From: Meiothermus taiwanensis DSM 14542
GTDB taxonomy: Bacteria; Deinococcota; Deinococci; Deinococcales; Thermaceae
Assembly: GCA_000482765.1 (NCBI GenBank)
Contig: AXWR01000002.1
Coordinates: forward strand, 62,001 to 126,000
Direction of reading: 5' to 3'
Length of the DNA: 64,000 nucleotides
A program made the position numbers and the translations under genes. Below are positions 39,078 to 45,072 of the stretch, one piece after another; positions within the stretch are counted from its first letter, which is position 1; the number at the start of each line of letters is the position of its first letter. The notes beneath the pieces were generated by a model. It had not been told where the DNA came from, ran no database searches, and saw only the letters and a list, made by a program, of their open reading frames with translations.

Positions 39078-40099
39078 GCCTGGGTAAAGCGAACCAGGCG
39101 CTCGAGCACCGCCAGCCCGGCCCCTTCGTCCAGGAGCTGCTGGGCCAGCCGCACCCCCTCGGCCACGCTCCCCACCCGGCCCGCCAGGTAGAAGGCCGCC
39201 CCGGCGTTCAGCGCCACCGCATCGCGCTTGGGGCCCCGCTGCTGGCCGCTCAGAATGGCCCGCGCCTCCGCCGCGTTCTCGGCGGCAGTTCCCCCACCAA
39301 TTGCTGTGTAGGGGGCAGGTTGCAGGCCCACCTCCTCGGGCCGCAGGTGGTAGGTGTGGATCTGGCCGTCCCTGAGCTCGGCCACTAGGTTCTCTCCCAG
39401 GGCCAGTTCGTCGATGGCCTCGAGGCCCTCCCCGCGCGCCATCTGGCCGTGCACCACCAGCGCCCGGCTGCTGCCCAGATCGCGCAGCACCCGGGCAAAG
39501 GGCTCCAGCAGGGCCGGGCTGCTCACCCCCACCAGGTTCAGGGTGGCAAAGGCGGGGTTGGTGAGGGGGCCCAGCAGATTGAAGACGGTGCGCACCCCCA
39601 ACTCGGCCCGCACCGGGGCCACATGGCGCATGGCCGGGTGGTGGTTGCGGGCGAACAGGAAGCCCAGGCCCACCGTCTCGATGGCCTCGGCCACCCGCTC
39701 CGGGGGCAGGTCAATGCGAACCCCCAGGGCCTCGAGCAGGTCGAAAGAGCCCGACTTGGAGGAGGCCGCCCGGTTGCCGTGCTTGGCCACCGCCACCCCC
39801 CCTGCGGCTACCACAAAGCAGGTGGTGGTGGAGATGTTGAAGGCCTCCGGGGCCACCCCTCCGGTGCCCACGATGTCCAGCAGGGGCTGGCGGCGGGTCT
39901 CCACCCGCACCGCGGCCTCGCGCATACCGGCTGCAAAACCGGCGATCTCCTCGGGGGTCTCGCCCCGGGTGCGCAGGGCCATCAGCACCCCGGCGGTCTG
40001 CACCGGGGTCAGGTCGCCGGCCATAATCCGGCGCATCAGGGCATGGGCCTCGGTCTGGGATAAAGGCTCGGCCAGAAGGGCTTTCTTGAGTTCGTCCAC
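39074..40099 (-). CDS. trpD: Anthranilate phosphoribosyltransferase
   Basis: 341 residues, the usual length. The PRPP site is DIVGTGGVAPEAFNISTT near residues 75-92, and KHGNRAASSKSGSFDLLEALG holds the second substrate region. It joins anthranilate to PRPP. It starts with GTG preceded by GGGGAGGAAGT. It is separated from trpE/trpG by three glycosyltransferase genes, all on the same strand with short spacing. Confidence 0.95.
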   Translation of the reverse strand: MDELKKALLAEPLSQTEAHALMRRIMAGDLTPVQTAGVLMALRTRGETPEEIAGFAAGMREAAVRVETRRQPLLDIVGTGGVAPEAFNISTTTCFVVAAGGVAVAKHGNRAASSKSGSFDLLEALGVRIDLPPERVAEAIETVGLGFLFARNHHPAMRHVAPVRAELGVRTVFNLLGPLTNPAFATLNLVGVSSPALLEPFARVLRDLGSSRALVVHGQMARGEGLEAIDELALGENLVAELRDGQIHTYHLRPEEVGLQPAPYTAIGGGTAAENAAEARAILSGQQRGPKRDAVALNAGAAFYLAGRVGSVAEGVRLAQQLLDEGAGLAVLERLVRFTQA

Positions 40100-40116
40100 A
40101 CTTCCTCCCCAAAAGT

Positions 40117-40974
40117 TTACACATCAAGCGGCAGACGCCAACCCCGCCGTAGGCCCCGCCCGAGGGCCCCCACTTTGTCGAAGCGGCCCTGCCGGCTGTA
40201 TTCCAGCAGCCAGAACAGGCCATACCCGGCCACCGCCAGCAGGGGCCAGGGGGCGTGCTTGCGAAAGAGCCGAACGTTGTAGGCGGCAAAGGTTTCGTCG
40301 GAACGCAGGTTACCCGACCAGGAGCTGCCTCCTTTGTGCAGCACCCGCGCCTCCTCGGCCACCGCCAGTCTAAACCCCGCCTCGAGCAGGCGCAGACCAT
40401 AGTCGCAGTCCTCACCGTACATGAAAAACCCCTCGTCCAAGAGGCCCACCCGTTCCAGCGCTGTCCGGCGGATGAGCAGGCTGGCCCCGCTGATGTAGTT
40501 CAAGCGCCCAAGCTGGCGCGGATGGGTCAGCAGGCGGATCAGGCCCCAGGGGAGCACCACCTCACCCCCGCCCCAGGCCTGCACCTGCTGGGGGTTGTCC
40601 ATTTCGTAGAGCACCGCGCCCACCGCCCCAATCCGGGCATCCTGTTCGGCCCGCTGCACCATGGCGCTGAGGGCTTTGGCATCGGGTAGGGTGTCGGGGT
40701 TGAGCAGCCAGACGTAGTCGGCCCCCGCGGCCAGGGCCCGGCGGATGCCCACGTTGTTGCCCCCGGCAAAGCCCAGGTTGCGCTCGAGCCGCACCAGCTC
40801 CACCGCTGGAAAAGCCGCGCGGATCTGGTCTATCGAGTCGTCGTCGGAGGCATTGTCCAGCACCAGTACCCGGTGGTTGGGGTACTCGAGCCTCTTCAGT
40901 GCCCCCAGGCAAACCAGCGTATCGCGCCAGGTTCGGTAGTTGAGGATCAGGGTGTAGACCAGAGGCTCAGCCAT
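40117..40974 (-). CDS. Family-2 glycosyltransferase (third in operon)
   Basis: 285 residues, GT-A fold. VLDNASDDDSIDQI binds the nucleotide, LLNPDT supplies the metal motif, and the acceptor region is FMYGEDCDYGLRLLEAGFR, typical of rhamnosyl/polysaccharide-type GT2 enzymes. The ATG at 40974 is chosen because the long upstream frame is low-complexity. It overlaps the stop of the preceding glycosyltransferase by 8 bases. The sugar and acceptor are unknown. Confidence 0.85.
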   Translation of the reverse strand: MAEPLVYTLILNYRTWRDTLVCLGALKRLEYPNHRVLVLDNASDDDSIDQIRAAFPAVELVRLERNLGFAGGNNVGIRRALAAGADYVWLLNPDTLPDAKALSAMVQRAEQDARIGAVGAVLYEMDNPQQVQAWGGGEVVLPWGLIRLLTHPRQLGRLNYISGASLLIRRTALERVGLLDEGFFMYGEDCDYGLRLLEAGFRLAVAEEARVLHKGGSSWSGNLRSDETFAAYNVRLFRKHAPWPLLAVAGYGLFWLLEYSRQGRFDKVGALGRGLRRGWRLPLDV

Positions 40975-41854
40975 CTTTGCCCTCCAGCAGCCCCTGGGTG
41001 TAGGCGGCCTCGAGCACAAACCGGTAGGCTGCAAAAGCCCCCGCCCCCGCCTCCCAGTCGCGCACCTGCAACAGCCGCTCGGCCCGGGCCCAGGGGTAGG
41101 CCCAGCGCTTGTAGGCCCGCGCCAGGGGGTGTACACCCGTCCAGAGGGCCACCAGGGGGTGCGGGTGCAGCCGGTAAAACTGCCAGGCCATCCGTCCCAG
41201 GCTCCGCGACTTGGCTACCATGACCTCGAGGCTCACACGGTCTTCGTGCGCCGCGCGGGCTTTTAGGGCCAGGCGGGGCCGCACCCCCTTGCGCCAGAGC
41301 CGCCAGCCCAGCTCGTGTTCCTCCCAGCCGTAACCCCGAAAAGGTACAAAGGCCTCGGCTACCCCGAGCGGCAAAGAAAGACTGGCAAACCAGAAGCCGC
41401 CCCAGCCCAGCGAGGCCCCCTCGGCCCGGCCCCGCACCCCCGACTCGGCCCTTGCGCGCCAGAAGCGAACGAAGGGCTCCTGGCCCACCCCGTCGGGAAT
41501 GTAGGTTCGGCTCACCGCAGCCGCCGAGGGATAACGCCGATGCAAGGCGAGGTGGGCCTGCAAGAACCCTGCTTCCGGAACGATGTCGTCATCGTTGAAC
41601 AGCACATACTGGCCCCGGGCCTGAAGCAGCCCTGCATTGCGGGCAGAGGCCAGCCCTGCGTTGGGTTGGCGCAGCACCCGCAGGCGGGGGTCGCGGAACC
41701 CGGCCAACACCTCCGGCGTCGCGTCGGTAGAGCCGTCGTCCACCACGATGACCTCGAAGGGCACCCCGTCCTGCGCCAAAAACGCCCGCACCGTGCGGGC
41801 CAGCAGTTGGGCCCGGTTGTAGGTGGGAATCACGACGCTGAAGGTGGGTTCCAT
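40967..41854 (-). CDS. Family-2 glycosyltransferase (second in operon)
   Basis: 295 residues, GT-A fold. FSVVIPTYNRAQLL begins the domain, VIVVDDGSTDATPEVL binds the nucleotide, FNDDDIVPEAG holds the metal-binding DDD, and GYGWEEHELGWRLWRKG is the acceptor motif. It overlaps the preceding glycosyltransferase by 25 bases and the following one by 8 bases. Confidence 0.85.
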   Translation of the reverse strand: MEPTFSVVIPTYNRAQLLARTVRAFLAQDGVPFEVIVVDDGSTDATPEVLAGFRDPRLRVLRQPNAGLASARNAGLLQARGQYVLFNDDDIVPEAGFLQAHLALHRRYPSAAAVSRTYIPDGVGQEPFVRFWRARAESGVRGRAEGASLGWGGFWFASLSLPLGVAEAFVPFRGYGWEEHELGWRLWRKGVRPRLALKARAAHEDRVSLEVMVAKSRSLGRMAWQFYRLHPHPLVALWTGVHPLARAYKRWAYPWARAERLLQVRDWEAGAGAFAAYRFVLEAAYTQGLLEGKDG

Positions 41855-42648
41855 GCCTCCGAGGCCCCCCAGGCATACGCCAGCTCGTAGTCGCCCCGCG
41901 CCCCCAGCAGGCCCTTGAAGGAGGGGAGCAGGGCCAGCTTTATGCTCACCAGCACCGGGTGCACCCCCAGGGCCCAGGCGATGCGGGGATCGCGGTGCTT
42001 CTGCCAGACCCGCACGTGGGCCGACCCCGCCTGCCGGGCTTTCTCGATGGCCCGGCCCCGGTAGTCGAAGGCCTCGTGCACGGCCAGCGCGTCCCGCACG
42101 AACACCAGCCGCGCCCCGGCCCGCATCAGGCGGTAGCCCAGGTCGGGGTCTTCGCCGCCGTAGCCGCTGAAGGCGGGGTCGTAGCCGCCCACCTCCTCGA
42201 ACAGGGCCCTGGGCAGCGAGGTATTGTTGCCGGTGATGTTCCACCAGAAGGCCCGGGGGCCCTTCAGCTCCGCCGCCCCTGTGCCCCGCAGCTCGGGGGG
42301 CAGCTCGAGCCGCCCCACCGCCACCGTGCGGGGCTGGGTGTGGGCTTTTTGATGGGCCTCGAGCCAGCCCGGCTGGGGTATCACATCGTCATCGGAAAAA
42401 AGCAGGATATCGCCCCTGGCCACCCCGGCCCCCCGGTTGCGGGCGCTAGCCGCGCCAAGGCCCGGCGTTATCTCGATAAAACGAAGGGCGTAAGGGGGTT
42501 TGTAGCGCTGCAGGAATTCCAGGGTATCGTCGGTGCAGCCATCGGCCACCACGATCACCTCGAACGCGCCCGGCTGGGCCTCCAGGGCGTGCAACTTCTT
42601 CTCCAATAGTTCGCGGCGGTTGTGGGTGGGTACGATTACCGAGATCAT
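41830..42648 (-). CDS. Family-2 glycosyltransferase (first in operon)
   Basis: 272 residues, GT-A fold. ISVIVPTHNRRELL, VIVVADGCTDDTLEFL and LFSDDDVIPQPGW are the family motifs, with GYGGEDPDLGYRLMRAG as the acceptor region. It starts 14 bases after the trpG stop. The ATG at 42648 is preferred over a TTG at 42654, but AATAAT lies 7 bases before that TTG, so an internal leaderless start is possible. Confidence 0.83.
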   Translation of the reverse strand: MISVIVPTHNRRELLEKKLHALEAQPGAFEVIVVADGCTDDTLEFLQRYKPPYALRFIEITPGLGAASARNRGAGVARGDILLFSDDDVIPQPGWLEAHQKAHTQPRTVAVGRLELPPELRGTGAAELKGPRAFWWNITGNNTSLPRALFEEVGGYDPAFSGYGGEDPDLGYRLMRAGARLVFVRDALAVHEAFDYRGRAIEKARQAGSAHVRVWQKHRDPRIAWALGVHPVLVSIKLALLPSFKGLLGARGDYELAYAWGASEAWNPPSAS

Positions 42649-42662
42649 CGTCAACTACCGCA

Positions 42663-43241
42663 TTATTCACACATCTGCAAGAAATTCGCCAGCATCTGCC
42701 GGCCCCCCTCGGTCAAGACCGACTCGGGATGAAACTGCACCCCGTGGGTGGGGTAGCGGCGGTGGCGCAGGCCCATCACCGTACGGCCCCCGGCCTCGTC
42801 GCACCAGGCATTGACCTCCAGCTCGTCGGGCAGGTCTTCCACCACCAACGAGTGGTAGCGGGTGGCCGTCAGGGGGGTGGGCAGGCCGGCAAACACCCCG
42901 CTGCCGTCGTGCAGGATGGGGCTGGTCTTGCCGTGCACAATCACCCGGTGCCGCCGCACCGCCGCCCCAAAGGCCTCGCCGATGCTCTGGTGGCCCAGGC
43001 AGACCCCTAGGATGGGGTACCGGGGTGCGTAGCGCTGGATGAGCGGCACCGAAAGCCCGGCCTCCTTGGGCGTGCAGGGGCCGGGGCTTACCACGATGCC
43101 GTCGGGGTCGAGGTCGGCCACGTCCTGCAAGGCAAAGCAGTCGTTGCGCCAGACGATCACCAGGGCCCCCAGCTCGCCCAGGTACTGCACCAGGTTGTAG
43201 GTAAAGGAGTCGTAGTTGTCAATCATCAGGATTCGCTTCAT
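42663..43241 (-). CDS. trpG: Anthranilate synthase glutamine amidotransferase subunit
   Basis: 192 residues, class I glutamine amidotransferase. The nucleophile Cys lies in PILGVCLGHQSIGEAFG, the oxyanion loop is SPGPCTPKEAG, and the His-Glu dyad is HGVQFHPESVLTE. It supplies ammonia to TrpE. The start overlaps the chorismate mutase stop (ATGA). A dual role in folate synthesis (PabA) is possible as in other bacteria. Confidence 0.95.
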   Translation of the reverse strand: MKRILMIDNYDSFTYNLVQYLGELGALVIVWRNDCFALQDVADLDPDGIVVSPGPCTPKEAGLSVPLIQRYAPRYPILGVCLGHQSIGEAFGAAVRRHRVIVHGKTSPILHDGSGVFAGLPTPLTATRYHSLVVEDLPDELEVNAWCDEAGGRTVMGLRHRRYPTHGVQFHPESVLTEGGRQMLANFLQMCE

Positions 43242-43507
43242 AACCCCGCCTCCCGCTTCTCCATGGCCGCGAACTCGCTGAGGATGGTGCGGTAGATCCG
43301 CTCGGCCACGTTGGGCGACAAGCCCTGGTGCTCAGCCATGTAGCGCACGTGCTGGATAATCTGCTCCTGCCGGTCTTTTGACTCAATGGGCACCTGGCCT
43401 TGCGCGAGCCGGGCCGCTTCTTTAGCCAGCCGTGCCCGCTGGGCCAGCAAGCCCACAATGCGGGCGTCAATGGCGTTGATCTGCAAACGAAGACCCTCGA
43501 GGCTCAC
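43238..43507 (-). CDS. Chorismate mutase (AroQ type)
   Basis: 89 residues, the size of a minimal AroQ domain. LRLQINAIDARIVGLLAQRARLAKE is the first helix with the conserved Arg, and the K/R and Q/E active-site residues follow in IESKDRQEQ. It converts chorismate to prephenate, competing with TrpE for the same substrate. The GTG overlaps the trpE stop (GTGA) and is preceded by GAGGAGG. Confidence 0.85.
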   Translation of the reverse strand: MSLEGLRLQINAIDARIVGLLAQRARLAKEAARLAQGQVPIESKDRQEQIIQHVRYMAEHQGLSPNVAERIYRTILSEFAAMEKREAGL

Positions 43508-44919
43508 AAACCCTCCTCGGCCAGGCGCACCGCCTTCACCATGGCCTGGGCCTTGTTCAGGCACTCCTGGTACTCGGCGCTGGGCTTGGAGTCGTAGACC
43601 ACACCCGCCCCCGCCTGGATGTGCAGCTGCCCGCCAGCCACCACGATGGTGCGCAGGGTCAGGGCCATGTCCATGTGCCCGTCGTAGGCCACATAGCCAA
43701 AAGCCCCTCCGTAGGCACCGCGGCGGGCGGGCTCGAGCTCCTCGATAATCTCCATGGCCCGGATCTTGGGAGCCCCCGAGACGGTGCCCATCGGCAAGAC
43801 CGCGGCCAGGGCGTCGAGCGGGGTTTTGTCCTCACAGAGCTCGCCCTCCACGGTCGAGACGATGTGCATCACGTGCGAGTAGTTCTCCACCTTCATGAGC
43901 TCGCGGGGCCGCACGCTGCCGTAGCGGCAGACCCGGCCCAGGTCGTTGCGCGAGAGATCCACCAGCATCACGTGCTCGGCCCGCTCCTTTTCGTCGGACA
44001 AGAGTTCCTCGGCCAGGGCCTGATCCTCGGCAGCGTCCCGGCCCCGCCGGCGGGTTCCGGCGATGGGACGGGTCACCACCCGCTGCCCATCGGAGCGCAG
44101 CAGGCTCTCGGGGCTGCTCGAGACCAGCGTCACCTCGCCCAGCTCCAGATAGCCCATGTAGGGGCTGGGGTTCACCGAGCGCAGCGCGCGGTAAACAGCA
44201 AAAGGGTGCACCTGGAGGGGGGCCGAGATGCGCAGCGAGGGCACCACCTGGAAGATGTCGCCGGCCCGGATGTACTCGAGCGCCCGCTCCACCATCTGCT
44301 CGTACTCGGCCTGGCTCACGTTCTGGCTGAACTCCACCCGCCGCCCGGCCCGCTCGCCCGGCACCCCCGGCAGCGGCCCGCTGAGCTTCTTCTCAGCCCA
44401 GGCGATGCGCTCCAGGGCCTGGGCCCGCTCGTCCTCCAGGGCCGGGGCCACGATGTGCAGCTGCTGCTTGAACTGGTCAAATACAATCAGGACTTCCGGC
44501 TCGATGAAAAGCAGGTCGGGAATGCCCAGCAGGTCGGGCTTCTGGCTGGGAAGCCGCTCGTAGTAGCGGATCAGGTCGTAAGCGGCGTAGCCCACCGCCC
44601 CACCCCAGAACAGGGGCAGGTCGGGGTCGGGCTGGATGGGCCGGTGGATGGCCTGGTAGAGGGTGCGCAAGGGATCCTGGGTGGGCACCGGCGCACCGTT
44701 CAGGGTCAGCACCCCATCCTTGAGCCGCCAGGTCTGCCGGGCCCCCACCCCCACAAAGCTCCAGCGGGCCCAGGCCTTGCCCCCCTCCACCGACTCCAGC
44801 AAAAAGCTGGGGCTGGCCTTCTCCGAGAGCTTCAGGTAGGCCGTGACGGGGGTCTCGAGGTCGGCCAGCAGGGTTTTTTTGACCGGGATGGTGGGTCTGG
44901 TTAGGTGTGCGATGGGCAT
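43504..44919 (-). CDS. trpE: Anthranilate synthase component I
   Basis: 471 residues. The tryptophan feedback site is FLLESVEGG near residues 39-47. The chorismate-binding domain shows IAGTRRRG, HVMLVDLSRNDLGRV and GTVSGAPKIRAMEII. It makes anthranilate from chorismate with ammonia from TrpG. AAGGAGAAC stands before the ATG. A terminator and a Trp-rich leader peptide lie directly upstream. Confidence 0.96.
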   Translation of the reverse strand: MPIAHLTRPTIPVKKTLLADLETPVTAYLKLSEKASPSFLLESVEGGKAWARWSFVGVGARQTWRLKDGVLTLNGAPVPTQDPLRTLYQAIHRPIQPDPDLPLFWGGAVGYAAYDLIRYYERLPSQKPDLLGIPDLLFIEPEVLIVFDQFKQQLHIVAPALEDERAQALERIAWAEKKLSGPLPGVPGERAGRRVEFSQNVSQAEYEQMVERALEYIRAGDIFQVVPSLRISAPLQVHPFAVYRALRSVNPSPYMGYLELGEVTLVSSSPESLLRSDGQRVVTRPIAGTRRRGRDAAEDQALAEELLSDEKERAEHVMLVDLSRNDLGRVCRYGSVRPRELMKVENYSHVMHIVSTVEGELCEDKTPLDALAAVLPMGTVSGAPKIRAMEIIEELEPARRGAYGGAFGYVAYDGHMDMALTLRTIVVAGGQLHIQAGAGVVYDSKPSAEYQECLNKAQAMVKAVRLAEEGL

Positions 44920-44937
44920 CTGTTCTCCTTTAGCAAT

Positions 44938-44966
44938 AAAAAATCCCCTGAGGAAAGCCCCAGGGG
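44938..44966 (-). terminator. trp attenuator terminator
   Basis: Read on the minus strand: CCCCTG (44961-44966), GGGCTTTCCT, CAGGGG (44945-44950), then a run of six T. With the inner G-U and G-C pairs the stem reaches 9 bp with a CTTT loop. It ends 19 bases before the trpE start. The upstream arm (44956-44964) can instead pair with 44983-44991, giving an antiterminator. Confidence 0.85.
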
Positions 44967-44989
44967 TAACGACCGCTACCGTCCCAGGG

Positions 44990-45034
44990 CTATCCGGGCC
45001 ACCACCAACCCTTGACGGGCACGATCGGTACCAT
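44990..45034 (-). CDS. trpL: trp operon leader peptide, 14 residues with three tandem Trp codons
   Basis: An ATG at 45034 opens a 14-codon frame, MVPIVPVKGWWWPG, ending in TAG at 44990. Three consecutive TGG codons (44999-45007) lie just before the stop. Ribosomes stalled there for lack of Trp-tRNA would leave 44983-44991 free to form the antiterminator. A ribosome reaching the stop would cover that segment and let the terminator form. This is the classical ribosome-mediated attenuation layout. Confidence 0.8.
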   Translation of the reverse strand: MVPIVPVKGWWWPG

Positions 45035-45043
45035 CTGGCCTTC

Positions 45044-45072
45044 AGTCTGCGCTATGGGCGGCCAGAATGCAA
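45044..45072 (-). promoter_or_regulatory. Candidate promoter of the trp operon
   Basis: On the minus strand, TTGCAT (45067-45072), 17 bases, CAGACT (45044-45049). The -10 is 9 bases before the leader peptide ATG, so the leader peptide would be read almost leaderless. Confidence 0.45.

Follow-up and report, generated by a model that had tools for sequence, protein, structure and literature searches.

Organization of the trpE locus

The window that we analyzed, a 64,000-nt stretch of the Meiothermus taiwanensis DSM 14542 genome, carries trpE, an AroQ-type chorismate mutase-like gene, and trpG on the minus strand, with slight frame overlaps among the three (Table 1). trpE is preceded by its own ribosome-binding site, AAAGGAG. 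Chorismate mutase is an enzyme of the competing Phe/Tyr branch, and its placement between trpE and trpG was seen only in some Meiothermus among the relatives examined. The minus strand also carries trpD (39089-40084), which three glycosyltransferase-like frames separate from the upstream trpG; trpD and these frames together occupy 39089-42654.

Directly upstream of trpE is a short open reading frame (ORF), trpL, that contains tandem Trp codons, and an intrinsic terminator is located between this ORF and the structural gene. The trpL stop codon is followed immediately by CCCTGGG, then by 16 nt (44982-44967), and then by the terminator hairpin. Region 2 can pair with region 3 over 9 bp (AGCCCTGGG with CCTGGGGCT), including one U-G and one G-U pair. 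The original prediction had described a 14-codon frame with three tandem TGG codons, this pairing with its two G-U pairs, and the terminator, and all of these parts proved correct base for base. Upstream of trpL, the -35-like and -10-like hexamers are separated by a 17-nt spacer. By folding, the leader RNA is more stable than its own shuffles (z = -2.7). Within the 64 kb, trpL is the sole minus-strand frame of 25 amino acids or fewer that encodes WWW, and one such frame occurs on the plus strand.

Table 1. Features of the trpE leader region and of other leaders in the genome. Coordinates are window positions; those preceded by a locus handle (L) lie outside the window.
Feature	Coordinates	Strand	Basis or remark
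-35-like TTGCAT	45067-45072	-	Sequence; TTGCAT/TTGCAC conserved among Meiothermus and Calidithermus leaders
-10-like CAGACT, whose end lies 9 nt upstream of the trpL ATG	45044-45049	-	Weak; TACACT, TATCCT, and TATAGT in relatives
Leader ORF trpL, peptide MVPIVPVKGWWWPG (stop), immediately upstream of trpE	44990-45034	-	Sequence
trpL start codon ATG	45032-45034	-	Sequence
Three tandem Trp codons TGGTGGTGG, proposed stall site	44999-45007	-	Sequence
trpL stop codon TAG	44990-44992	-	Sequence
Region 2, AGCCCUGGG, antiterminator 5' arm, overlaps the UAG stop	44983-44991	-	Sequence, folding, register test
Region 3, CCUGGGGCU, antiterminator 3' arm, overlaps the terminator 5' arm	44956-44964	-	Folding, register test
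Intrinsic terminator hairpin CCCCTGGGG-CTTT-CCTCAGGGG, 9 bp, loop CUUU, -15.9 kcal/mol	44945-44966	-	Terminator scan, folding
T-rich tail ATTTTTTATT behind the hairpin	44935-44944	-	Sequence
trpE, anthranilate synthase component I, start at 44919	43504-44919	-	TIGR00564, 547 bits, over cutoff
AroQ-type chorismate mutase-like gene	43238-43564	-	Weak matches to several chorismate mutase models, all under cutoff
trpG, anthranilate synthase component II	42663-43241	-	TIGR00566, 240 bits, over cutoff
trpB leader ORF MRPRTPRSYKWHHQRWWRRRA (stop), Trp-rich	L237:1319-1384 (G000 contig C4)	+	-10 TACCCT 8 nt before ATG; terminator behind
DAHP synthase leader ORF MQTSRGFASQNTHFYGYFYWPVVPVRPV (stop), including FYGYFYWP	L236:2411-2497	-	TTGACA/TATGCT promoter near ATG; strong terminator behind
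ilvB leader ORF MLLPSSLILTVVGLVITGPGGDLV (stop), Leu/Ile/Val-rich	L233:3222-3296	-	TTGACA/TAAACT promoter ending 10 nt before ATG; GC-rich hairpin before ilvB

Promoter placement and putative leaderless translation

Hexamers matching the -10 element at four or more of six positions were counted in 55 distinct regions upstream of the leader start. They lay 6 nt before the start in 20 cases, 7 nt in 9, and 8 to 10 nt in 7. Altogether, 36 matches fell 5 to 10 nt before the start, whereas 200 shuffles averaged 1.9 and never exceeded 6. A strict Shine-Dalgarno core preceded only 1 of the 55 leaders versus 36 of 55 trpE starts. The suggestion that the leader peptide may be leaderless is thus supported by both the -10 spacing and the near-absence of Shine-Dalgarno sequences. 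Transcription is predicted to start at the leader ATG or 1 to 3 nt upstream, and the leader would therefore be translated from leaderless RNA with RNA polymerase still close.

Distribution and conservation

Sequence upstream of trpE was inspected in 98 genomes from families f1 to f5 of the phylum, none of them knowingly from Deinococcaceae. Family f1 comprises Meiothermus, Calidithermus, and Thermus (the last being f1g4); f4 and f5 we take to be the Marinithermus and Truepera groups, respectively. A leader with WW or WWW precedes trpE in 64 of the 66 genomes of f1 to f4, and the remaining two have a version with one Trp and unchanged downstream parts. The TGG run, on whose conservation the original prediction hinged, is therefore kept across relatives as two or three codons, and the prediction stands on this point. 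The one-Trp leaders, MNLTSLRPWPG (L118, G048, Thermus group) and MLTRANGKGWPS (L152, G002), offer natural variants bearing on how many Trp codons are needed. The leader of T. parvatiensis is of the MALPSALWWPG type, followed by the stop codon.

None of the 32 f5 genomes has a Trp leader before trpE, and a strict scan of the 160 nt upstream of trpE found no terminator-like hairpin in any of them; the same scan detected one in 45 of 58 genomes of f1 and f4. Nor did any of the 52 trpE loci of other phyla carry a Trp leader. Searched with a covariance model of the element, each Thermaceae genome gave one strong match, located at trpE; weaker second matches of the model (27 to 29 bits) had no WW leader at the five loci inspected. 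Apart from the known site, a sequence-pattern search for extra copies in the genome returned only chance-level matches.

The N-terminal half of the leader peptide varies freely (MVRTAQVKG, MALPSAL, and MKRFAVRF, for example), and the sequence TGG TGG CCY GGN TAR is almost fixed in f1 and f4. Among PG-ending leaders, the last two TGG codons are almost invariant (29/29 and 28/29 distinct sequences). In an alignment of 32 sequences, 94% of cells were paired in the proposed antiterminator register, compared with 31 to 73% when the arms were slid by 1 to 3 columns. The corresponding covariation score was 0.238, versus 0.04 to 0.11 for slid registers and 0.200 ± 0.013 for shuffled sequences. The GC-palindromic nature of the arms keeps covariation modest, and double-changed pairs were no more numerous than in shuffles. 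Divergent arms still pair across lineages: CUCCAGG with CCUGGAG, AGCUCCAGG with CCUGGAGCU (L101), AACUCUGGGU with AACCCAGAGU (L180), and ACCUGGGC with GCCCCAGGU (L140). Shuffling region 2 only gave p values of about 0.01 to 0.1 for most sequences; this test has little power, since self-pairing is inherent to GC-rich palindromes.

Modeled effect of ribosome position

We modeled the ribosome by constrained folding, covering the RNA as far as 12 nt beyond where the A-site codon begins, at 37 and 60°C (values given in that order). With the ribosome at the first Trp codon of the window leader, the probability of region 2:3 pairing was 1.00/0.98 and that of the terminator was 0.00/0.00. With the ribosome at the stop codon, these values were 0.22/0.21 and 0.90/0.92, respectively. 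Without a ribosome, the terminator reached 0.94/0.95, since region 2 is then taken up by pairing within the leader. The antiterminator is thus predicted to be mutually exclusive with the terminator, to be freed by a ribosome at the Trp codons, and to be covered by one at the stop codon. The original prediction assigned the same two roles to the ribosome, and the folding agrees with it for an element that is conserved across relatives.

The direction of the switch was the same on average in f1 and f4. At 60°C, the mean terminator probability with the ribosome at Trp versus the stop was 0.20 versus 0.94 in f1g1, 0.18 versus 0.91 in f4, and 0.64 versus 0.98 in Thermus. The equilibrium fold of the full-length leader often favored the terminator in Thermus, f2, and f3, in many Thermus leaders even with the ribosome at Trp; an early antiterminator would therefore have to act kinetically there, as is assumed for classical attenuators. 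In Thermus, the antiterminator probability was 0.97 before region 4 is made. These folding results are a thermodynamic sketch of the switch, not a demonstration of it.

A proposed ribosome-mediated attenuator of the trpE operon

We propose that the element controls the trpE-(chorismate mutase)-trpG operon by ribosome-mediated transcription attenuation, a reading to which, from sequence and modeling, we assign a probability of about 0.93. Points that weigh against it are the poor -10 of the window sequence, the single Trp codon of two relatives, the modest covariation, and the equilibrium preference for the terminator in many Thermus leaders. When Trp-tRNA is ample, the ribosome would reach the UAG codon and cover region 2 (CCCUGGG); region 3 would then pair with region 4 to form the terminator, and the transcript would end near 44938. 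Under a shortage of Trp-tRNA, stalling would occur in the TGG run, which begins 15 nt upstream of the stop. This would leave region 2 free to capture region 3 first, allowing readthrough into trpE. Sequence and computation support the parts and their conservation, the pairing register, the modeled switch, and the placement of the -10; from these we infer the transcription start, the stalling, the termination, and the dependence on Trp.

Alternatively, sensing could reside in the leader peptide, with nascent-chain arrest on free Trp, as in TnaC, acting on the same RNA switch downstream. The WWPG sequence before the stop is almost invariant, even though the Gly codon is free to vary at its third position, and Pro-Gly at the stop could slow termination. 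However, outside this motif the peptide lacks conservation, f2 and f3 have lost PG, single species have altered it (WPR and WSG), and attenuation requires no arrest; we give this possibility very little weight. It is hardly credible that the Trp-rich ORF arose as a chance frame and that the hairpin is a spacer or a fixed, ordinary terminator. Terminator-like sites are indeed common in the region (2 found, 1.5 expected), and short frames containing WW arise by chance, with 16 in the 64 kb, but the order WW, stop, antiterminator, terminator recurs in all but two of the f1 to f4 genomes despite an otherwise variable peptide, with the TGG run invariant, and the arrangement is absent from f5 and the loci of other phyla. 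Attenuation by another sensor (TRAP, a T-box, or a repressor protein) with an incidental leader ORF is scarcely tenable: TRAP or T-boxes govern trp genes in other phyla, but the window has no Rfam match at the gathering score and only weak, unrelated ones at E values up to 10 (the T-box model is in neither set), the leader RNA (45034-44938) holds two (G/U)AG triplets, far below the approximately 9 to 11 repeats that TRAP needs, and the conserved tandem Trp codons would be left unexplained.

Leaders of other biosynthetic genes

Outside the window, trpB, the DAHP synthase gene, and ilvB in this genome also have upstream leaders, each with a promoter positioned as expected if translation were leaderless (Table 1); none of the three peptides matches Pfam or NCBIfam models. 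The core of the trpB leader, RTPRSYKWHHQRWW, is kept in most Meiothermus, in f1g2 genomes, and in G009 of f4. Across 14 distinct sequences, it shows 33 synonymous versus 4 nonsynonymous variant cells, and this conservation at the amino acid level suggests a functional nascent peptide. A hairpin could form between CACCACCAG and CGCTGGTGG downstream of it and may account for part of the conservation. In the DAHP synthase leader, aromatic runs (FGYFYWP; YFGFYYPAGGALRSA in Thermus) are kept in most Thermaceae read. We rejected the trpB and DAHP synthase leaders as classical attenuators, since a simple folding model showed no competition between terminator and antiterminator in either. Codon-run leaders do not usually show such peptide-level conservation; together with the lack of a computed antiterminator, it raises the possibility that the trpB peptide itself matters. 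From its sequence, the ilvB leader is a candidate ilv attenuator. A broader scheme, which we regard as speculative and rather unlikely, is that leaderless leader peptides are a general means of controlling amino acid biosynthesis in this lineage (trpE, trpB, DAHP synthase, and ilvB), with the trpB peptide a nascent-chain Trp sensor and not a codon-run attenuator. If true, two kinds of Trp sensing would act on one pathway.

Comparison with known systems

Sato et al. reportedly noted in 1988 an "attenuator-like structure" before trpE of Thermus thermophilus (HB8), which is probably the Thermus orthologue of the Meiothermus element. A full-text literature search located no account of a trp attenuator in Thermus or Meiothermus. 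The novelty is lower than the original prediction implied, as a leaderless trpL is already known in Sinorhizobium meliloti (PMC7298713). A 2010 survey stated that no leader-peptide attenuator had been demonstrated beyond Proteobacteria and Actinobacteria and contributed a Firmicutes case (PMC2965389). The element described here would make this class near-universal in four families of a thermophilic phylum that branches deeply, with leader translation predicted to proceed without a Shine-Dalgarno sequence. Attenuation requires coupled transcription and translation, and the element would therefore make coupling at 55 to 75°C directly testable in Thermus, which is widely used for determining the structures of ribosomes and RNA polymerase.

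The S. meliloti trpLE(G) system (rnTrpL/peTrpL) is alike in its trpE-class target, its 14-amino-acid leader with several consecutive Trp codons, its terminator/antiterminator switch, and its leaderless RNA, which begins with the ATG of the leader ORF (PMC7298713), a 5' end that is predicted here. However, S. meliloti belongs to an unrelated phylum, trpE and trpG are separate genes in Meiothermus, some members of which have the chorismate mutase gene in between, and no counterpart of the trans-acting RNA and peptide is indicated for the Meiothermus leader.

The E. coli trp attenuator (Trp_leader, RF00513) likewise has a 14-amino-acid leader, tandem Trp codons near the stop, and mutually exclusive hairpins. 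The window has no match to RF00513 at the gathering score or at E values up to 10. In contrast to E. coli, the Meiothermus leader lacks a Shine-Dalgarno sequence, its region 2 overlaps the stop codon, and its regions 2, 3, and 4 are near-identical GC palindromes. The KGWW of the window's trpL peptide resembles E. coli TrpL; this likeness is probably convergent, because most relatives lack KGWW. We read the element as a probable case of classical trp attenuation, not as a new kind of mechanism.
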